DNA from: Gammaproteobacteria bacterium
Lineage (GTDB): Bacteria; Pseudomonadota; Gammaproteobacteria; Pseudomonadales; Pseudohongiellaceae
Length of the DNA stretch: 42,837 bases
Direction of reading: 5' to 3'
Assembly (NCBI GenBank): GCA_018698975.1
Contig: JABIPQ010000077.1
Location: 1 to 42,837 of the forward strand
Shown piece by piece: positions 17,040-30,236 of the stretch. Numbering within the stretch: position 1 is the first letter of the stretch; every line of letters begins with the position of its first letter. Made by a program: the position numbers and the translations under genes. The notes beneath the pieces are model-generated. The model was not told the DNA's origin, did not search any database, and saw only the letters and a program-made list of their open reading frames with translations.

Positions 17040-18380
17040 TTAAACCTCGGAGATGATGCCTGTGCTATTGCCAAAGCTTTCCTGTGGAATGCCGAGCCTG
17101 TCCAGTATGGTCAGGTGTACATTGGCCAGGGGGGTGCGCTCAGGCAGGATTATATTCTGGCCACCTTGCATTGCGCCGCTGGCTCCGCCCACCAGGATTT
17201 CCGGCAGAGGATAATTGTCATGCTGGTTACTGTTGCCCATGTTTGAGCCATACAGGAACATTGAATGGTCAAGAATACTGCCATCACCATCGGGCGTATC
17301 GGCAAGTTTCTGAACGAAGCGTGCAAAATGATCCATATGATAACGCTGTATACGGGTCAGATCGGCTATTCGCGCAGGGTCATTGGTGTGATGGCTGGTG
17401 GGATGGAAGCCGCCTGCCACATCAACCTGCTCATAGGTACGGTCGGTGCCTTCAGCGGCCATCACCAGTGTTGCGATACGAGTAAGATCTGCCTGATATG
17501 CCAGTGCGATCAGATCGAACATCATCTTGATCTGCTCATCGAAATCTTCGAACTGGCCCACCGGGGCGGCAGGAACATCCACACCTGTCATGTCGCGTTC
17601 ACCGGCGAGCTGCACACGTCGCTCGATTTCCCGGACGGTATCCAGGTAATCTGACAATAAGGCTCTGTCACCAGGGCCGAGGTCTTTGCGCAATGCTTGC
17701 GTGCGATCGGCAATCATGTCCAGAATACTGCTGTTCTTTCTTAGTATCGCTTCACGTTCTGCTTCTGTGTCATAAGGCCCCATCAACTGGATAAATACCT
17801 TGCGAGGATTGAACTCCATGGGCAGTGGCTTGTTGGGTGCGGAAAAAGAGGTGGTTACAGCATAGAAGCCCCCGTTACCGGCAGCGACCTGAATAGTCGT
17901 CTCAGTGGCCAGTTCCAGAGAGGGTAGCGCAGTTTCCTGTCCTAACTGCTGGGCGATCACCTGGTCCAGCGTAGTAGCCAGTTCTGGTGTAGATCCTGTT
18001 CCCGGACGCACACAGGAAAGCCAGGTGGCCGGATTGAGTGTATGTACCGAGCCGCCTGCAGCGGTATTTTCAATATTTTCAAAAGTGGTGAGGTATTGTT
18101 TAAGTGGATCCATTGGTTCAAGAATGTGACCCAGCTGGAAATTATCCCCGGAGCCGCTGGAGGTCCAGGCATCCACTTCTTTGCCAAAGGGTGTGTTGTT
18201 CATAATCGTGCCATGGGGCAGATAGAAAAACCCGGCACGTTTTTTAGGCATGGCTTCAACCTGGGCAAGCGCGGTGCCCGCCGGTACCATGGCATCCAGA
18301 AATGGCAGGCCCAGGCCTACTGCGCCACTGCGCAGAAGTGTGCGTCGTGATAAATGCTTTTTAGTCAGGAATGTAGCCAT
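17040..18380 (-). CDS. DUF1552 family exported protein
   Basis: The 446-residue protein starts with a Tat-like signal (SRRTLLRSGAVGLGLPFLDAM). It has DUF1552 hallmarks: RAGFFYLPHGTIMNN, GSVHTLNPATWLSCVRP, FDEQIKMMFDLIALAYQADLTRIATLVMA, GGFHPTSHHTNDPA and FLYGSNMGNSNQHDNYPLPEILVGG. The C-terminus has the alkaline-phosphatase-like look of related planctomycete sulfatase-like families. The gene lies 52 bases after the DUF1592 cytochrome. These two families are almost always adjacent in genomes, although their reaction is unknown. Tat export suggests that a cofactor or fold is acquired in the cytoplasm. Confidence 0.92.
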   Translation of the reverse strand: MATFLTKKHLSRRTLLRSGAVGLGLPFLDAMVPAGTALAQVEAMPKKRAGFFYLPHGTIMNNTPFGKEVDAWTSSGSGDNFQLGHILEPMDPLKQYLTTFENIENTAAGGSVHTLNPATWLSCVRPGTGSTPELATTLDQVIAQQLGQETALPSLELATETTIQVAAGNGGFYAVTTSFSAPNKPLPMEFNPRKVFIQLMGPYDTEAEREAILRKNSSILDMIADRTQALRKDLGPGDRALLSDYLDTVREIERRVQLAGERDMTGVDVPAAPVGQFEDFDEQIKMMFDLIALAYQADLTRIATLVMAAEGTDRTYEQVDVAGGFHPTSHHTNDPARIADLTRIQRYHMDHFARFVQKLADTPDGDGSILDHSMFLYGSNMGNSNQHDNYPLPEILVGGASGAMQGGQNIILPERTPLANVHLTILDRLGIPQESFGNSTGIISEV

Positions 18381-18399
18381 AGTCTTTTACCCTTTATTG

Positions 18400-18462
18400 G
18401 AAATTGGGGTCAGAACCCTATTTCCTATATTCTCATTGAAATTGTGTTCTGACCCCAATTTC
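18400..18462. repeat. REPIN-like palindrome of the RAYT-linked family
   Basis: Two 17-base arms (18400-18416 and 18446-18462) are perfect reverse complements, separated by 29 bases. Each contains GGGGTCAGAAC, the core found flanking the RAYT gene. This is the arrangement of a REPIN, two inverted REPs with a short spacer. The right arm lies inside the end of the DUF1592 coding sequence. Confidence 0.85.
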
Positions 18463-20889
18463 TGTTGATGCTATTGCGTTCTCGTTTTCTTCGGGACCCT
18501 GCTGGCGGAAAACCTCGTTGTTGACTATTTCAGTAATGATCGAGGCAAATGTGTAATTTTTGTCGGCTGCCGCGCGCACAATTTTACGTACCTGTGGCAT
18601 ATCGAAATATTCGATTTCTCGGTTCAGGGCATACATCATCAGGCGTTTGGTAATTGTAGTAGGCAATTGGTCTTCTCTGCTTAACAGATGATTGCGCAGC
18701 TCTACAGGACCGCTTAATTTCTTTCCGCTGGTCAATACTGTTGATGCATCAATGGTCGCATTTGCCAGGGGATCAATATCACGCCAGCGTCCTGTCACAT
18801 CAAAATTCTCCAGTGCCAGACCGGGCGGGTCAATCAAGCCGTGGCAGGCCATGCAGGTAGGATTCTCGCGATGTTCTTCAAGGCGGGCTCGCACAGTGGT
18901 TGGAATATCACCTTCACGAATAGACAGGTCAACCTCAACGTTAGGTGGTGGTGGCGCCGGTGGTGTGCCCATGATGCGGTCGAGTACCCAGGCGCCGCGC
19001 AATACCGGTGAGGTACGATCCCCATAAGAAGTTCTCAGTAATGTGGCTCCTTTACCCAATAGACCCCAGCGATTTTCATCCTCAAGGGTCACGCGTCGGA
19101 ATTGGGATCCAAGTACCCCGGAAATTCCATACTGATTGGCAAGCGAGTCATTCACGTATGTCCAGTCAGCCGTCAGTAGTTCATGAACGCTGCGTTCTTC
19201 CAACAGGACACTGGCAAGAAAAAGGCGAATTTCTGTTTCATAATTAGTGCGCATGCCATTGTTGAATCCGCGGTCAGAAGGTTCAACCGCACCCAGCTCA
19301 TCCAGATTCAGCCAGGCGAGTGCGAAATTTTCAACCAGTGCCCTGGCGCGAGGGTCCGCAAGCATTCGAGACACCTGCGCCTCCATGGTTGCGGGATTGC
19401 TCAATTGGCCATCCGCAGCCAAGGCAATCAATTCCTCATCGGGGCCCTGGCTCCAGAGGAAGAAAGACAGACGCGAAGCCAGTTCCAAATCGTTCAGGTC
19501 TCTGGGTTCATCTGTGACTATTTTCAGCGAGCGATACAGGAAATCCGGGCTGGATAGAATAGCGGTAACCAGTTCAATAACGCCGGAATCAAAACCGCCT
19601 TCTTCAGCGCGACCCGTTTCATAAAAAGGCATCAGCCATTCAAGATCTTCAGCACCTACAGGACGGCGGAAAGCTTTGGTAGCAAGGTTTTGGGCGATGT
19701 CTTCTGCACAGCGGCGTTCTTCAGCCAATTCTGATGGCTGACAGATAAATATTTTTTCACGGCTTTCGCTGAGGGAAAGTCCTCTGGGTTCATAAGGTCC
19801 CTCAACTTCAACACCGAGCCCGATTCTTGGCATACCAGTAACTCTACCGTTACCTGTTGCGTTATTGCTTGCACCCCAGGAGCGTTCAATGAAGGTGACG
19901 ATGACCTCATGGGTGCCCACCTCAACATTGGCCGATAAACCTGCCAGTTTGGCCAGAATCACATCACCACCGACTACCCCATCGCGGGTAGCAATAGCGA
20001 GATCTTCAGGACCACCGATCTCCACGCGATTAACTTCTACGCCATCGACCAGAATGACCATGGTCGCTGCAGTTTCCATTCCACGCGGATACAAACCGGC
20101 ATCGATATCCAGAATGTTGAAGCGATATTCACCATCAGCCGGGAAGAAATGCGTGAAACTCATGCCGCCACGCGTACCCAGAGGAAAGCCGTCAATGTGG
20201 TTTCGCGCTGCGCTATTACCGCCGGCAAAACCAATATTGCGATCGGGCAATTCATGGAAAACATTGGCGTATTTTGGCAAGGGAGTACCAACGGCCTGGG
20301 TGGCAACCAGTCGTGTCGCTGCAATATATTGTTCCAGAAAGGACGGCGAAGAACCCAGTGCATTGGCGATATTATCGAATCCTTCGACCTCGATTTCACT
20401 GGGCAGTATCTGTTCCGCATCTATATCTACACCAATCAGGCCCTTTACCGTTGTTGCAAATTCGGTTCGGTTAAGGCGCTGAATCGGGACATGACCGATA
20501 TGGTGGTTTTGTGCGCTGGTATCGATGGACGTCTCCAGATAGCCAACCAGTGCGTCAACTTCGCTCTGGGCCGGTTGTGGCTGTCCGGCAGGTGGCATGA
20601 GTCGTCCGCGCAGTTTGTTGATCGCTTCTTCCCAGATTTCCGGTTCCTGATCAATATGGCCCAGATCCATCAGATCGAAGGCAACGCCACCAGAGTAGTC
20701 TTCCAGGTTGTGGCATTCCACGCAGTATTCCTGGACCAGATTATTAGACGCATCGCTGCTTCCTATCACTCCCTGTGCAAGTGCGCTCTGGGCGGCAAGA
20801 GAAGTGAATGCCAGCCAAAAAGCGGTTTTGGCCATTTTGACTGGTGCCAGCTTAAGTGAAAATTCGAAAATCATTGCCTGCTTGCTCAT
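18433..20889 (-). CDS. DUF1592 family c-type cytochrome (PSD1-type multidomain)
   Basis: The 818-residue exported protein is a planctomycete-type multidomain cytochrome. After the signal segment (19-39) there is a heme site CVECH (56-60) in a cytochrome domain with LMPPAGQPQP. It is followed by DUF1587, DUF1595, DUF1592 (RLSFFLWSQGPDEELIALA), DUF1588 with a second heme site CMACH in PTCMACHGLIDPPG, and DUF1585 (RKIVRAAADKNYTFASIITEIV). It is the first gene of a four-gene operon; ATG 20889 has GAGAAG upstream. The reaction is unknown, but electron transfer with DUF1552 is expected. Its last ten residues, ending TEIGVRTQFQ, are encoded by a REPIN arm, so the native C-terminus probably ended near ENENAIAS. 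Confidence 0.93.
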   Translation of the reverse strand: MSKQAMIFEFSLKLAPVKMAKTAFWLAFTSLAAQSALAQGVIGSSDASNNLVQEYCVECHNLEDYSGGVAFDLMDLGHIDQEPEIWEEAINKLRGRLMPPAGQPQPAQSEVDALVGYLETSIDTSAQNHHIGHVPIQRLNRTEFATTVKGLIGVDIDAEQILPSEIEVEGFDNIANALGSSPSFLEQYIAATRLVATQAVGTPLPKYANVFHELPDRNIGFAGGNSAARNHIDGFPLGTRGGMSFTHFFPADGEYRFNILDIDAGLYPRGMETAATMVILVDGVEVNRVEIGGPEDLAIATRDGVVGGDVILAKLAGLSANVEVGTHEVIVTFIERSWGASNNATGNGRVTGMPRIGLGVEVEGPYEPRGLSLSESREKIFICQPSELAEERRCAEDIAQNLATKAFRRPVGAEDLEWLMPFYETGRAEEGGFDSGVIELVTAILSSPDFLYRSLKIVTDEPRDLNDLELASRLSFFLWSQGPDEELIALAADGQLSNPATMEAQVSRMLADPRARALVENFALAWLNLDELGAVEPSDRGFNNGMRTNYETEIRLFLASVLLEERSVHELLTADWTYVNDSLANQYGISGVLGSQFRRVTLEDENRWGLLGKGATLLRTSYGDRTSPVLRGAWVLDRIMGTPPAPPPPNVEVDLSIREGDIPTTVRARLEEHRENPTCMACHGLIDPPGLALENFDVTGRWRDIDPLANATIDASTVLTSGKKLSGPVELRNHLLSREDQLPTTITKRLMMYALNREIEYFDMPQVRKIVRAAADKNYTFASIITEIVNNEVFRQQGPEENENAIASTEIGVRTQFQ

Positions 20890-21248: not shown

Positions 21249-22184
21249 ATGCGTGAAGGATGTTGCTGTAAAACAATGAAACCTGATTGGCTTATTAAAT
21301 GTTCTCTGGCGCTTCTGCTGATCTTACCAGTATTTTCTATGGCTCAGCATCATGTGCCCGCTGAACGTTTACCCCGGGAAACCCTTGATGTGCTGCCACC
21401 CTCCGAGCGCGTTACCGGCATTCCTGGTGAAATGCGCATTAGTGACCGCAGTTGCCATCAATACCCCGCGTCCCAGGTCAGACAAAGAATAGTTGATATC
21501 GCGACTCAGGAATGGGCGTGGTTTGGTTACAGTGTTCTGGATATGACAAGTCCAGCCGAACTGGATGCCAATGCAGGCCGCAGTCGCCGTTGGTGGCGCA
21601 GCAACTGGATGTCGGAACAAGAAGCCAGGCGTGTGTCAGATGATATTGCCGGCTACTGGGCTGCTGCACCAGATAGTAGCTGGTTACTGGAACGACAAAA
21701 TGAACGTTGGCGTGAGCAGGGCATCACTGCGCGCTGGCGCGATTTTTGGTCTGCCGCATTTATTTCCTGGGTGATGTGTGAAAGTGGTCTCGGTGAATCT
21801 GAACAATTCCAGCGGGCTATTGCTCATCATTCCTATATTGATCAGGCTATACGGGCACGAGACGGGCTCGAACCAAAGGCTGCTTTTACAGCTTATGATG
21901 TAGGTGAAGCAGAAATTGTTCCAGGTGATTTGCTTTGTCGCGGTAGCAGACCGGAATACCAGAATCTGGAGCAGCGCCGTGGGCAGATGGGAGAGGGTGC
22001 GAGAACCCATTGTGATGTTGTTATTGAACTGGATACGGCAAATAAACAGATCAAGGTAGTAGGGGGTAATGTCAGAGGGGCGGTTAGAATGAAATTGCTG
22101 CCTGGAGAGATAACAGGCTCAGGTCATTTTCAGCCTCTGCCTTATGGGGGCAGAAGTATTTTTTCTCACTTGAAGCTGGGATAG
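21249..22184 (+). CDS. Exported DUF2272 family protein
   Basis: The 311-residue product has a signal-like segment (about 15-32, FSMAQH). It matches DUF2272 through WSAAFISWVM (167-176), FQRAIAHHSYIDQA (187-200), PGDLLC (225-230) and HCDVVIEL (254-261). The layout (WxAxF, AHHxY, PGDL, HCDVV) resembles CHAP/NlpC-type amidases, but Ser replaces the catalytic Cys in WSAAF, so it may be inactive or unrelated in chemistry. ATG 21249 is used; ATG 21276 is nearly as good, and neither has a strong ribosome-binding site. A hairpin terminator lies downstream at 22371-22394. Confidence 0.8.
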   Translation: MREGCCCKTMKPDWLIKCSLALLLILPVFSMAQHHVPAERLPRETLDVLPPSERVTGIPGEMRISDRSCHQYPASQVRQRIVDIATQEWAWFGYSVLDMTSPAELDANAGRSRRWWRSNWMSEQEARRVSDDIAGYWAAAPDSSWLLERQNERWREQGITARWRDFWSAAFISWVMCESGLGESEQFQRAIAHHSYIDQAIRARDGLEPKAAFTAYDVGEAEIVPGDLLCRGSRPEYQNLEQRRGQMGEGARTHCDVVIELDTANKQIKVVGGNVRGAVRMKLLPGEITGSGHFQPLPYGGRSIFSHLKLG

Positions 22185-22370
22185 TGTGATCACGATAAGA
22201 CAAAATCCAGAAAATCCGATTAAATCTGGTTTCTCTTATCTTCTGTAAAATGTTGACGTAAATCCCCTGTATTGAAATCCTGTTTCATATTTATAAAATC
22301 CGCTACCTGTTTTATAGCCCTCGCATTTGTCCGGCCTCTCCTTTCCAGCATTTTTTATGACTGCCACTAC

Positions 22371-22394
22371 TACAGGAAAAACTCCTGTATTTTT
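22371..22394 (+). terminator. Putative rho-independent terminator downstream of DUF2272 gene
   Basis: TACAGGA (22371-22377) and TCCTGTA (22383-22389) form a seven-pair stem with an AAAAC loop, followed by TTTTT. It lies 187 bases after the DUF2272 stop, which is rather far, so the long 3' untranslated region is unexplained. Confidence 0.55.
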
Positions 22395-22564: not shown

Positions 22565-24724
22565 ATGGAATCACTCAAAGTCTTAAAGCCGGCTGATGGT
22601 AGTCGTGTTATTCAGTGTGGCGATGAATCAGTTCTCATTGGTCAACCGCCAGAAGTGCTGAAAGGTTTATTGCTCCACGATATTCCAACTTTTAACACCA
22701 TGGTGTTGACCGACAGTAAGGAAAAAGACGGCTCTCTGCTTAACAATCTGGAATTTCCTCTCTACTTTTTTCTTTTCATGAGCAATGGCCTGGCCGAAGG
22801 TAAAAGGATAAACCTGGTGGGTTGTCATGAAGATATTTCACGCGTTTTTAGATTATTGAGACTAACCTTGCTTGGCCCCACTGCCAGTGAATTGAGTGGC
22901 TGGGGGACTCCCCAAAAAATGCAAAGGGAATGGCTTGATGCTGCTCACTATCTTGCACTCAAGGATGAAAAGGGGCAGGTAAGGGAAGTAGAAAGTTTTT
23001 TCAATGTGATTTCCTTCGAGAGTGATAAAGCCACTGCTGGCTCATTTTTGATATCCCACACCGGGACTGATACTTATAAAGTGTCTCTTAATGGTGAGTC
23101 TGTGGAGATCGATATTAATGAAGATGAACATATTAATCCGCCATACCAGATGCAATCTGATTTTATTCCCAGGGATCTGGTAAAGCTGGGTCTTGAAATA
23201 CTCGGCAGTGCTTCCGGATTTACTGCCAATGAACCCTGCACAGGACTTGCCTTGTGCTACAACGGTTCCTATATACTTATTGATTCCCTGCCTTATCTGG
23301 ACAAGCATTTGTATGCCAGGGGGATATCCAAGAACTCTATTTCCGCAGTGTTTTTAACCCATCTGCATGATGATCATTGTGCCATGTTTCCGCTTATCCT
23401 GATGCCGCATAAAGTGGAAGTAATTACTACGCGGGAAATTTTTGAGATGGCTGTCGAAAAGCTCAGTTGCAACCTGAACTGGAACGCGGATGTGATACGT
23501 GAGTATTTTCATCTGGTAGAGATGGTGCCAGGTAAAACTCATAAATATTTTGGTATGGAAATCAAGCCGCACGTCACTGTGCATAGTATTCCTACCATTG
23601 GTGCCACTTTTTCGGTACAGCACAAAGGCGGCAGTCGCGAAGTGTGTATTATTGGTGACAATAACGGGATGAGCTCGATTAAGGAAATGCACAAGCTTGG
23701 TATTGTCAGCTCAGATACTTATGAAAACCTGTGCAGTATCTTTACTGATCGCTTTGACTTGCTGGTGGCGGATGGTGGGGCAGGGGCAATACATGGTGAT
23801 CCTGTTGATGCCTTGAGTTCTGATTCGGACCGGGTTGTATTCGTGCATGTAGAGCATCTCGCACATCAGTTCACCACAACTTTTTCACTGGCCAGTTCCG
23901 GCAAGCGTTATATCGTTGTTGAGGGAGATAATTCTATATATAGCTCGCTGATGAATCAGTACTTGTCTACCTGGCTGGGTGAGCCATTTTCGGATCGCTG
24001 GGCTAGAACTATCATGGCCGAAGATGAAGTGCGCCGTTATAACAAGGGCGATGTCATCATGGTGCAGGAAGAGCGCACTCGTGGGTTCGTCTATTTAATT
24101 CTCACTGGTTACTGTGATGTGGTGATGTACGATGGTAGCGAATTCCAAACCGTTGCCAGTTTGCAGGCAGGTGAGATTATTGGAGAAATGGCGGTGGTTA
24201 CCGGCACATTGAAGCGTAATGCCAGCGTTGTAGCTAGTTCACCGGTCACCGTCATGATTTTTTCAGAAGAAAATTTTAATGAGTTTGTAGTACGCGAAGG
24301 TTATCGCGATATGTTGCTCAAGCGCTGGGAGATGCGTACGGCGCTGAGAAAATTGCCCCAGTTTTCCAAGCTCATTTCCACCGTGCTGGAAAAAATATCC
24401 AGTCTCGGTGAAGTGGATACGATTAGTGCGGGGCAGGAACTCATTATTGATGATGACTGGTGGTATATTTTCGAAGAAGGTACAGCCAGTTTTGAAGGTA
24501 TTCCGCTCACCAATGGCGATGAGCTTGGCATCAGGCCATTTTCCCATAAAGTTCTGGGCACTATGAAAGCCGAAAGCGAATGCAAGTTGATCAGATTCCC
24601 TATTCAGGCATTCTCCAGCTTGCTCAACGGCACACCCCAGTTAAATTATTTACTGCGAAAATATCGGCTGGCTACTGATGATCCGGGAGTAGACTGGTTG
24701 CGGGGAGAAGTGACGACCAGATAG
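22565..24724 (+). CDS. Metallo-beta-lactamase-fold protein fused to a cyclic-nucleotide-binding domain
   Basis: The 719-residue cytoplasmic protein has no signal peptide. Residues 1-200 have no recognised domain. The MBL domain (about 200-470) has the intact metal motif THLHDDH (265-271), with VCIIGDNNGM and VHVEHLAHQF downstream. A cyclic-nucleotide-binding domain follows (about 485-590), with the phosphate-binding cassette GEIIGEMAVVTGTLKRNASV. Its Arg and Ala/Ser pattern is close to the cNMP consensus. The last 130 residues may be a second degenerate copy (DTISAGQELIIDDDWWYIFEEGTASFEGIPL). A nucleotide-gated hydrolase, possibly a phosphodiesterase, is inferred. It is monocistronic, with a structured leader upstream and a repeat cluster downstream. 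Confidence 0.85.
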   Translation: MESLKVLKPADGSRVIQCGDESVLIGQPPEVLKGLLLHDIPTFNTMVLTDSKEKDGSLLNNLEFPLYFFLFMSNGLAEGKRINLVGCHEDISRVFRLLRLTLLGPTASELSGWGTPQKMQREWLDAAHYLALKDEKGQVREVESFFNVISFESDKATAGSFLISHTGTDTYKVSLNGESVEIDINEDEHINPPYQMQSDFIPRDLVKLGLEILGSASGFTANEPCTGLALCYNGSYILIDSLPYLDKHLYARGISKNSISAVFLTHLHDDHCAMFPLILMPHKVEVITTREIFEMAVEKLSCNLNWNADVIREYFHLVEMVPGKTHKYFGMEIKPHVTVHSIPTIGATFSVQHKGGSREVCIIGDNNGMSSIKEMHKLGIVSSDTYENLCSIFTDRFDLLVADGGAGAIHGDPVDALSSDSDRVVFVHVEHLAHQFTTTFSLASSGKRYIVVEGDNSIYSSLMNQYLSTWLGEPFSDRWARTIMAEDEVRRYNKGDVIMVQEERTRGFVYLILTGYCDVVMYDGSEFQTVASLQAGEIIGEMAVVTGTLKRNASVVASSPVTVMIFSEENFNEFVVREGYRDMLLKRWEMRTALRKLPQFSKLISTVLEKISSLGEVDTISAGQELIIDDDWWYIFEEGTASFEGIPLTNGDELGIRPFSHKVLGTMKAESECKLIRFPIQAFSSLLNGTPQLNYLLRKYRLATDDPGVDWLRGEVTTR

Positions 24725-28892: not shown

Positions 28893-30236
28893 ATGGATTT
28901 AATCGCTACTGATCAAGTTACTCCCTCATCCCCGATGGCCGCCATGCTTAATGGCTATGATTGTCCCGCCATCCTGGTCTCTGCAGATTATGAAATTCTG
29001 GCAACCAATACCCGTTACCAGGACACTTTCGGAGCGATTGATTTTGCTAAAACAAATCGCTGTTTCAGGATTTCCCATGGCTATGACCTACCCTGTGATC
29101 AGGCAGGCGAAGACTGCCCGCTGGGTGCGGCAAAAACTTCCGGACACAAGGAGCGCGTCCTGCATATTCACCAGACACCCCGCGGTAAAGAACATGTCGA
29201 TGTGGAGTTGCTGCCCATTCATAATGCACAAGGGGAATTAATCTACTTTGTTGAATTGCTACATCCCGTCCCGCTTGCCAGCGGCGAGGTCGATGACAAG
29301 AAACTGGTTGGAGAAAGTGCAGCGTTCAATAGCATGTTGGAGAAAATTGCGCGTGTCGCCAAGGCCGATATTTCTGTCCTGCTACTGGGTGAATCGGGCA
29401 CAGGCAAGGAGCTTGCAGCCAGTGCCATTCATGAAGCCAGCGACCGCAAGGCAAAAGCATTGGTCACTCTGGAATGTACCGGGCTCATCGACTCGCTGTT
29501 TGAAAGTGAATTATTCGGTCATATGAAGGGCGCATTTACCGGTGCTGTTTCCAATAAAAAAGGTCTGGCGGAACTGGCAGATGGCGGCACCTTGTTTCTG
29601 GATGAGATTGGCGATGTGCCATTACAGACACAGTTAAAATTATTACGCTTGCTGGAGACCGGTACTTTTCGTGCGGTGGGCAGCGCGGAGGTCAGGCGTT
29701 CGGATTTCAGGTTGATCTGTGCAACGCACCGTAACCTGATTCGCATGGTGGACGAGGGGGAATTCCGGGATGACCTGTTTTATCGTATCAACGTATTTCC
29801 TGTCTACCTGCCGTCGTTGAGTGAACGCCTCGATGATATTCCCTTGCTGGCCAAGGCATTATTGAAAAGAGTCGCAGGGGGTAAAAAATTCACCTTGTCG
29901 AAAGATGCCCGGCAAGCGCTGAAGGCGCATCATTACAAGGGCAATATTCGCGAACTGCGTAATATCCTCAGTCGCGCAATCGTGCTCAGTGATACAGATG
30001 AAATAGAAGGGGAAACTATTCTGGAATGTTTTTTTGACCGGGTGCAGCAACTGGATTCGGGTAACAGCGTTGACCATGCAGAGGAAGTTGTTAAAGAAGT
30101 GGATCTGAAAACCCATGAAAATAATTACGTTGAAAGTCTTTTGCAGCGTTACCAGGGCGACAAGGAAAAAGTCGCGGACATTCTTGGCATCAGCGTACGC
30201 TCACTCTATCGTAAAATGAGTGAAGCAAGCGATTAG
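28893..30236 (+). CDS. Sigma-54 enhancer-binding transcriptional activator with Cys/His PAS domain
   Basis: The 447-residue protein has three parts. Residues 15-125 are a PAS domain with a Cys/His motif (C57, H62, C68 and C75 in the pattern CxxxxHxxxxxCx6C) that may bind a metal or sense redox or ligand. Residues 138-370 are the AAA+ module with Walker A GESGTGKE (166-173), the sigma-54-contacting GAFTGA loop (213-218), Walker B TLFLDE (233-238) and FRDDLFYRINVF with its Arg fingers. Residues 415-445 are a Fis-type helix-turn-helix (EKVADILGISVRSLYRKM). There is no receiver domain, so it senses directly rather than through a kinase. The promoter at 28729 and the TGACA cluster suggest that it activates the small membrane protein gene. 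Confidence 0.95.
   Translation: MDLIATDQVTPSSPMAAMLNGYDCPAILVSADYEILATNTRYQDTFGAIDFAKTNRCFRISHGYDLPCDQAGEDCPLGAAKTSGHKERVLHIHQTPRGKEHVDVELLPIHNAQGELIYFVELLHPVPLASGEVDDKKLVGESAAFNSMLEKIARVAKADISVLLLGESGTGKELAASAIHEASDRKAKALVTLECTGLIDSLFESELFGHMKGAFTGAVSNKKGLAELADGGTLFLDEIGDVPLQTQLKLLRLLETGTFRAVGSAEVRRSDFRLICATHRNLIRMVDEGEFRDDLFYRINVFPVYLPSLSERLDDIPLLAKALLKRVAGGKKFTLSKDARQALKAHHYKGNIRELRNILSRAIVLSDTDEIEGETILECFFDRVQQLDSGNSVDHAEEVVKEVDLKTHENNYVESLLQRYQGDKEKVADILGISVRSLYRKMSEASD

Follow-up and report, generated by a model that had tools for sequence, protein, structure and literature searches.

Here we analyzed the gene at 22565..24724 on the forward strand of contig JABIPQ010000077.1 (GenBank assembly GCA_018698975.1, a gammaproteobacterium placed in the Pseudohongiellaceae). 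This stretch of 42,837 nucleotides, called the window below, is the entire contig C35 of a source genome of 2.79 Mb in 151 contigs (95% completeness). We found that the gene is an intact open reading frame (ORF) with an ATG start, encoding a protein of 719 amino acids in which a catalytic metallo-beta-lactamase (MBL) domain is fused to cyclic-nucleotide-binding (CNB) domains, and that the protein is probably, though by no means certainly, an allosteric cyclic-nucleotide phosphodiesterase regulated by cyclic nucleoside monophosphates (cNMPs). We favored this reading because of the precedents GbpA/GbpB and Rv1339, an invariant metal site and an intact phosphate-binding cassette; its weakest link is the step from fold to substrate. 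The analysis established the domains of the protein, its conserved residues and its predicted fold, and showed that the genome encodes CRP and class III cyclase domains.

The features are listed below. Conservation was counted in alignment A2, which contains 68 intact full-length rows (13 interrupted or contig-cut rows of 80 loci were excluded), and in alignment A3, which contains 19 rows (5 near and 14 distant).

22565..24724, forward strand: whole gene, 719 amino acids, intact (ORF list, translation)
22565..23164, forward strand: predicted N-terminal pseudo-MBL, residues 1-200, without metal motif (AlphaFold2 model, VIA-align rows against ELAC2)
23171..23923, forward strand: catalytic MBL, residues 203-453, RNase Z / phosphodiesterase type (Pfam Lactamase_B, VIA-align)
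23360..23377, forward strand: metal motif H266-L-H-D-D-H271 (H/H/D/D/H in 68 of 68)
23582..23584, forward strand: H340, predicted metal ligand (68 of 68; invariant in A3)
23657..23659, forward strand: D365 (GDN), predicted bridging metal ligand (68 of 68; invariant in A3)
23771..23794, forward strand: D403...H410 (DGGAGAIH), expected near the active site, putative role (D403 and H410 in 68 of 68; invariant in A3)
23846..23848, forward strand: H428, predicted last metal ligand (68 of 68; invariant in A3)
24026..24298, forward strand: CNB domain 1 (CNB1), residues 488-578 (Pfam cNMP_binding; Foldseek to PKA regulatory subunits)
24170..24226, forward strand: phosphate-binding cassette, residues 536-554, with E541 and R551 (kept in 66 and 64 of 68 A2 rows, respectively; alignment with CNB domains in PDB)
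24377..24679, forward strand: CNB domain 2 (CNB2), residues 605-705, phosphate cassette lost (AlphaFold2, Foldseek, profile match to 2d93)
22371..22389, forward strand: terminator-like hairpin followed by a T tail, separating the DUF2272 gene from the MBL-CNB gene (pattern scan, sequence)

Domain organization and predicted fold

A first-pass annotation had read an MBL domain with an intact metal motif and a CNB domain with a phosphate-binding cassette in this protein, and both were borne out. Pfam Lactamase_B matched residues 232-340 (E 1.1e-6, 29.2 bits against a cut-off of 22.7), the metal motif being H266-L-H268-D269-D270-H271 (HLHDDH) and the other predicted ligands H340, D365 and H428. 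Following the MBL superfamily, we take H266, H268 and H340 to hold one metal and D270, H271 and H428 the other, with D365 as the bridge. Pfam cNMP_binding (PF00027) matched residues 490-575 (E 5.6e-18, 65.1 bits against a cut-off of 27.5), and the cassette of this domain reads G540-E541...R551-N552-A553-S554.

An AlphaFold2 model built from the 68 sequences of A2 had a predicted local distance difference test score (pLDDT) of 90.5 and a predicted template modelling score of 0.92, with the lowest-confidence blocks at residues 401-410 (mean pLDDT 67) and 431-440 (66). Of an earlier, poor model from eight rows (pLDDT 57.9), only residues 611-680 were used. As modelled, the domain order is pseudo-MBL, MBL, CNB1 and a degenerate CNB2. 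The N-terminal region, previously described as of unknown type, is a pseudo-MBL in the predicted model and aligns with the first half of ELAC2. Residues 1-200 carry no HxHxDH and had no Pfam match at E<=1, and VIA-align placed residues 1-453 of the model on ELAC2 (8rr3_E, Z 20.5, 370 residues, root-mean-square deviation (rmsd) 4.0), with six ELAC2 rows spanning about residues 1-453 and 363-378 residues each. The first of the two MBL domains of ELAC2 is metal-less. This predicted likeness comes from alignment of the whole model rather than from a search with the N-terminus by itself.

A second, degenerate CNB domain at about residues 605-705 had been overlooked in the first-pass annotation. Its AlphaFold2 block means were 91-97, and residues 611-680 scored 85-93 even in the poor eight-row model. 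The top 50 Foldseek rows were PKA/PKG regulatory chains and similar proteins, with roughly 260-310 alignment columns (about 270 for two-CNB PKA regulatory chains; model ranges were not printed), which exceeds what one CNB fills and thus points to a tandem CNB match. The A2 profile also matched residues 592-690 to the CNB domain of RapGEF6 (2d93, E 2.1e-4), and the phosphate cassette is lost in this domain. Toxoplasma PCR12 was rejected as a whole-protein relative, its matches being limited to CNB stretches, and the viral fold library gave partial matches only (template modelling score (TM) by query <=0.25).

Conservation, descent and the wider family

A contig scan with alignment A1 gave 89 confirmed relatives, the best 80 of which were retained as loci. 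By their record titles, 79 of these 80 were metagenome-assembled genomes, the exception being a scaffold of the Olavius algarvensis Gamma 3 endosymbiont; the nearest named records were gammaproteobacterial metagenome-assembled genomes as well. PF00027 and PF00753 both matched at E<=0.001 in all 68 members of A2, and ten putative active-site residues (H266, H268, D269, D270, H271, H340, D365, D403, H410 and H428) were identical in every row. The mean share of the commonest residue was 0.77 in the MBL domain, 0.745 in CNB1, 0.72 in residues 1-110 and 0.495 in CNB2. When the gene was compared with its nearest intact relative (L024), the proportions of nonsynonymous (pN) and synonymous (pS) differences were 0.107 and 0.735 over 719 codons; among the four parts compared, constraint was strongest in MBL and CNB1 and weakest in CNB2. 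The matches to both families in every member, the invariant residues and the low pN relative to pS argue that the MBL-CNB architecture is not due to chance. Interrupted copies were found at 7 of the 80 loci, with in-frame stops in L025, L026, L028 and L094 and frameshifts in L077, L091 and L097, and contig ends truncated 6 of the 80. In the three interrupted copies compared (L025, L026 and L028), pN was still far below pS, as under strong purifying selection, and so the breaks are either recent or assembly errors.

We surveyed 57 near genomes, of which 36 belong to family f1 (the source genome included) and 21 lie outside. The gene or pieces of it occurred in 12 of the 36 f1 genomes (7 with intact copies, 5 with interrupted or partial ones), and one of the 21 others had a contig-edge piece. 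Some match was present in 26 of the 57, and in 13 of these it was confined to the CNB or the MBL part. Gene neighbourhoods in A2 fell into three groups, of 22, 21 and 20 rows, and the protein of the window is among the 5 rows left over. Once 8 distant rows had been added to make a fifth group, these labels, which we assigned from shared gene clusters, changed 5 times on a tree for which FastTree gave long-branch warnings, mostly for distant rows (minimum 4; shuffled mean 42). Such few changes suggest mainly vertical descent with losses. A mobile or phage origin was rejected, as no relative was found in viral contigs (pattern scan) or plasmids (tblastn) and the contexts track descent; when the distant relative L118 was used against plasmids, the best 20 of 36 matches fell on its hemerythrin end only.

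A pattern scan counted 5 terminator-like hairpins in the region around the gene, against a mean of 2.7 in shuffles, and the one listed above suggests a separate transcript for the MBL-CNB gene. A DUF2272 gene lies just upstream (21249-22184, forward strand), beyond this hairpin. Further away, a DUF1552 (HXXSHH) gene is paired with a multi-DUF gene of the PSD/PSCyt kind that contains a cytochrome c stretch (17040-20889, reverse strand), and another gene encodes a PAS and sigma-54 activator with a Fis-type helix-turn-helix (HTH; 28893-30236, forward strand). The AAA-HTH part of this activator matched the PADLOC RtcR/PspF models (E 1e-101), and its N-terminus is PAS, not CARF. No operon partner common to all clades was found, neighbour genes differing by clade.

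In a phylum-wide search of 398 genomes, 38 (the source genome included) had matches at E<=1e-20. The 29 distant relatives read (L105-L133) are proteins of 714-1053 amino acids that retain the pseudo-MBL/MBL/CNB core, and all 29 carry HxHDDH. According to phmmer with domains of L118 and L129, 17 of them end in a hemerythrin domain, two (L125 and L129) begin with a receiver domain and 10 have neither. Pfam, run on 10 of the 29, placed Hemerythrin over its cut-off in L105, L117, L118 and L133 and just under it in L110, found a receiver domain in L129, and gave two cNMP_binding stretches in 7. L105 also passed the NCBIfam bacteriohemerythrin cut-off (108 against 84 bits; four distant relatives run). 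The ten active-site residues were invariant in all 19 rows of A3. The distant CNB1 cassette is atypical: by eye, Arg stood at Glu/Asp+14 in 22 of 24 ORFs and at +10 in none, the pattern having caught 24 of the 29 ORFs and missed 5. Taken together, the invariant active-site core and the varying cassettes and add-on domains suggest that the enzyme core stays constant while the sensing parts change.

As far as we have seen, the bacterial family of MBL-CNB proteins is uncharacterised, and no paper combining hemerythrin, lactamase and cNMP/cyclic nucleotide was found in the open-licence PMC literature, where a single paper (PMC12419801) was listed for an MBL-CNB fusion. It is conceivable, although we remain rather doubtful, that the protein stands for a single branch of a so far unrecognised family of allosteric phosphodiesterases in proteobacteria, with a fixed pseudo-MBL/MBL core and exchanged sensors. 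In this branch, that of marine Gammaproteobacteria, a canonical CNB cassette would serve cNMP feedback; other branches, whose CNB1 cassette is atypical (Arg at Glu+14, not Glu+10), would use bacteriohemerythrin to respond to O2, NO or iron, or else a phosphoryl receiver. If so, bacteria would possess cNMP hydrolases controlled by O2 or by phosphorylation, as well as a counterpart to GbpA/GbpB of slime moulds, and the core, when it bears hemerythrin or a receiver, would couple the breakdown of cNMPs to gas or two-component signals. The bacteriohemerythrin in 17 of the 29 distant relatives could also mean that gas or iron sensing runs in the wider family, and hence that the protein is a non-catalytic sensor or scaffold whose CNB and MBL domains relay a signal, such as metal or oxygen binding, without turnover. 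We consider this highly improbable, given that the hydrolase-type HxHxDH ligand set is invariant in 68 of 68 rows and that the flavodiiron-type HxExDH motif was not seen in the protein. Oxygen-binding flavodiiron-type MBL sites carry HxExDH.

Proposed activity and alternative readings

In the mechanism that we infer for a cNMP-regulated phosphodiesterase, which extends to the metals, the ligand, the substrate, activation rather than inhibition and the biological role, the enzyme would be cytosolic and the phosphate of a cNMP would dock on R551 and E541 of CNB1. The ligand would most likely be cAMP, and could be cGMP or a pyrimidine cNMP. The resulting movement might reach the MBL domain through the helices on either side of CNB1 (457-485 and 581-595) and through the degenerate CNB2, altering access to, or the geometry of, the two-metal site, where the 3',5'-phosphodiester of a cNMP would be hydrolysed. 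The N-terminal pseudo-MBL may lie against the catalytic MBL, as its counterpart does in ELAC2, and act as a scaffold or substrate gate, and the net effect would be negative feedback limiting the cNMP made by class III cyclases. For cyclic dinucleotides as substrate, there is nothing in favour beyond their being phosphodiesters. In our view, the switch-off of cNMP signals in bacteria is less worked out than their synthesis, and a conserved enzyme with its own built-in sensor of cNMPs would offer feedback control ready-made.

The source genome contains class III cyclase matches over the cut-off at 4 loci in 5 pieces (2 strong, 1 weak, and 1 weak and split) and an E. coli-type CRP ortholog (345 bits against a cut-off of 266); no class I cyclase was found in it. 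A two-piece class III cyclase-like match at G000:C5:4998-5443 of this genome is possibly a broken cyclase gene. Among f1 genomes, class III cyclase matches averaged 5.42 in the 12 with the gene or pieces and 2.46 in the 24 without (Mann-Whitney p 5.6e-4; genus-stratified permutation p 9e-4), these counts being matches rather than checked genes, with only the split piece of the source genome merged. The 7 genomes with intact copies also exceeded the 5 with interrupted or partial copies (p 0.017, the source genome counted as 5). As controls, gene-bearing genomes and those without had 7.8 and 19.6 GGDEF matches (p 0.25), 4.5 and 3.6 CRP-like matches (p 0.12) and sizes of 3.03 and 3.18 Mb (p 0.40), respectively.

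An ORF with a cyclase domain lay 3.0-5.4 kb from the gene on the opposite strand at 8 of the 80 loci, many of which are too short to cover this distance. These ORFs include a cluster from two loci, both members of which are HAMP-cyclases over the cut-off. The two, at L031 2852-4831 and L098 2874-4916 (both reverse strand), are HAMP class III cyclases encoded upstream of the MBL-CNB gene, on the strand opposite to it and at a distance of about 3.0 kb, and they are related to the cyclase of the source genome at C77. For CRP-like sites, 67 upstream regions yielded 3 with one mismatch and 8 with two, compared with 0.4% and 8.3% in shuffles, and matches across the window were at chance level (18 against 20.4). 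CRP control of the gene was rejected here; any signal is limited at most to a few of the loci, namely L042, L045 and L054.

Regarding the catalytic domain, VIA-align of residues 203-453 against PDB gave Z 20.5-22.6 with RNase Z, arylsulfatase, Brucella MBL, PhnP, YhfI, Apyc1 and PqqB. The neighbours that degrade cNMPs or have a nucleotide bound, which speak for a phosphodiesterase, include Apyc1 (7u2r, Z 21.7), the Brucella MBL with GMP (3md7, Z 21.8) or AMP (3qh8, Z 21.6), YhfI (6kns, Z 21.7) and yeast PDE1 (4ojv, Z 19.5). PF02112, the family of typical class II phosphodiesterases, was absent among Pfam families at E<=1, and the motif is HLHDDH, not HSHLDH.

Several observations weigh against a cNMP-regulated phosphodiesterase. 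First, RNase Z 2cbn was the top structural match (Z 22.6) and lies within one Z unit of the best phosphodiesterases; since it scores as high as they do, the fold is equally compatible with cNMP and with RNA as substrate. The match to NF041851 ('cyclic nucleotide-degrading phosphodiesterase') was weak (18.8 bits against a cut-off of 400), and Lactamase_B_2 (PF12706) reached 21.8 bits against 27, matching 32 of the 68 A2 members at E<=0.001. Second, R551 is missing in 4 of the 68 A2 rows, and the superposition on PKA regulatory subunits by Foldseek was loose overall (rmsd 7.8-19, TM by target <=0.50); with an rmsd of 7.8 or more, the relative placing of CNB1 and CNB2 differs from that in PKA. 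Third, GGDEF (p 0.010), CRP-like matches (p 0.002) and genome size (p 0.017) were also higher with the gene within genera. Thus, genome content confounds the comparison, and the cyclase correlation is suggestive, not specific. The copies were interrupted or partial in 5 of the 12 gene-bearing f1 genomes. Finally, no cyclase was found in an operon with the MBL-CNB gene, and the 8 nearby cyclase-domain ORFs stem from two gene clusters only (6 and 2 loci); of two members tested from the six-locus cluster, one reached 21.4 against 21.9 bits and the other had no listed PF00211 match. No CRP-like site was found within 250 bp upstream, where the best 16-mer has 4 mismatches, and the site at 22185-22200, which has 2 mismatches, is no better than the window would yield by chance.

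The rows that lack R551 (L074, L078, L079 and L101) have the catalytic set intact and the cassette Arg gone, and are therefore natural candidates for a nucleotide-blind form.

The suggestion of the first-pass annotation, a nucleotide-gated hydrolase and maybe a cNMP phosphodiesterase with feedback, thus stands as the best-supported reading in view of the GbpA/GbpB domain order and the MBL neighbours, with the equal structural match to RNase Z counting against it. The latter, together with the alignment of residues 1-453 to ELAC2, a tRNase with two MBL domains, points to the main rival, in which the pseudo-MBL/MBL pair would resemble ELAC2 and cut RNA (tRNA, mRNA or small RNA), switched by CNB1 as the sensor of a cNMP. 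The best MBL matches in NCBIfam were likewise RNase Z models, with 26.4 and 25.8 bits, far under their cut-offs of 252 and 293. Such a cNMP-gated nuclease seems to us unlikely. The RNase Z cut-off was missed about tenfold (25.8 against 292.95 bits for the equivalog model TIGR02651), and the HEAT-motif His of RNase Z is not evident, the stretch reading LLVADGG. Two other RNase Z-like ORFs of the genome (324-339 amino acids) scored 76.7 and 73.6 bits compared with 29.5 here, neither reaching the cut-off. The hemerythrin and receiver add-ons of relatives also appear to be more usual on second-messenger enzymes.

The structural list leaves room for another substrate class as well, in that arylsulfatase (8gyg, Z 22.0), PqqB (4z7r, Z 21.6) and PhnP (3g1p, Z 21.0) stand near its top. 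In phmmer with the MBL domain alone, arylsulfatase was the best match (E 0.028), and the neighbour genes vary between clades, as might be expected of a cNMP-regulated hydrolase acting on a non-nucleotide small molecule such as a lactone, sulfate or phosphonate ester. However, no operon partner persists across clades, the neighbourhoods track the gene tree, and GbpA/GbpB provide a precedent for the architecture, so that this alternative appears distinctly unlikely.

The nature of the nucleotide is a further point. PADLOC's top matches for the CNB domain were PycTIR/TIR effectors (E 3e-13), and the CNB1 cassette aligned without a gap to PycTIR 8jsk (GEMAAIQPTQKRSATV versus GEMAVVTGTLKRNASV), whereas its alignment with PKG contains a one-residue gap. 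Apyc1 was among both the top MBL structures and the phmmer matches of the MBL domain alone. These results would suit an Apyc1-like enzyme encoded on the chromosome and either linked to Pycsar-type signalling or descended from it, with a pyrimidine cNMP (cUMP or cCMP) as substrate and ligand, a possibility that we regard as quite improbable. Neither PycC nor PycTIR was matched in ten window neighbours or eight representatives of recurrent neighbour clusters, whose matches to defence models were generic ATPase parts, the RtcR AAA-HTH part and a weak PD-T4-2_B, and the neighbourhoods are stable and track descent. PF23023 (Apyc1) was not listed for the 719-residue protein at Pfam E<=1 and, although it appeared in 9 of the 10 distant relatives run, it stayed under its cut-off of 50 there (16.7-23.3 bits or less). 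Moreover, E541 and R551 are ten residues apart, and E72 and R82 of CRP have the same spacing. In cAMP/cGMP sites, the position after the cassette Arg is commonly Ala, Ser or Thr, and here Asn552 follows Arg551. Asn552, the gap-free alignment with PycTIR and the CRP spacing do not point to one particular cNMP.

Comparison with known systems

Among MBL enzymes, Apyc1, the anti-Pycsar cNMP phosphodiesterase, has the MBL fold in common with the 719-residue protein (Z 20.9-21.7), and its matched chains of only 238-246 residues leave no room for CNB domains. ELAC2 and long-form tRNase Z likewise have a tandem MBL pair, residues 1-453 aligning over 363-378 residues, but the protein is far under RNase Z cut-offs, and we know of no CNB domains in ELAC2. 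On the regulatory side, the tandem CNB pair is shared with PKA/PKG regulatory subunits and the E/R phosphate cassette with PKA/PKG and CRP; here, however, the fusion partner of the CNB domains is an MBL, in place of a kinase or DNA-binding part. The side-by-side cyclase and effector of the Pycsar defence system were not found among the neighbour genes tested in the window or in related loci. Arabidopsis CN-PDE1 is described as a phosphodiesterase that cGMP stimulates and that does not belong to the animal kind (PMC6692503); its HD-domain fold is unrelated to MBL.

Rv1339 is described as a bacterial MBL-fold cNMP phosphodiesterase, with YhfI as its modelling template (PMC9293780). Atypical class II MBL phosphodiesterases of the Rv1339 type resemble the present protein in having the MBL fold, in being bacterial and, where tested, in degrading cNMPs, the activity that we propose; they differ in that the protein reached NF041851 at 18.8 of 400 bits. 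No report on a class II phosphodiesterase with CNB in bacteria was found in the open-licence PMC literature. To our knowledge, Rv1339-type enzymes have no CNB domains, and C. glutamicum CpdA is reportedly placed among the atypical class II bacterial MBL phosphodiesterases.

Finally, in Dictyostelium GbpA and GbpB, according to published descriptions, an MBL catalytic domain is followed by two CNB domains, and cNMP binding activates cGMP/cAMP hydrolysis (PMC11988041). Their motif, given for GbpA/PdeD and GbpB/PdeE as HCHADHDS, is set apart from HSHLDH class II enzymes (PMC3188802), and a Physarum homolog of PdeE has been reported (PMC4758236). Compared by published description rather than by sequence, the present protein has the same order of an MBL and two CNB domains and the same HxHxDH-type motif. 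It differs in the exact motif (HLHDDHCA here, HCHADHDS there, with metal ligands alike), in being bacterial, in the loss of the CNB2 cassette and in its predicted N-terminal pseudo-MBL. Because the exact motif differs and the likeness is by description only, we did not file the protein as a member of GbpA/GbpB, for which no N-terminal pseudo-MBL is known to us. On paper, it would be a variant resembling GbpA/GbpB, namely a bacterial MBL enzyme that is gated by cNMPs and carries a pseudo-MBL, and the family would offer a bacterial comparison point for the slime-mould cGMP phosphodiesterases.

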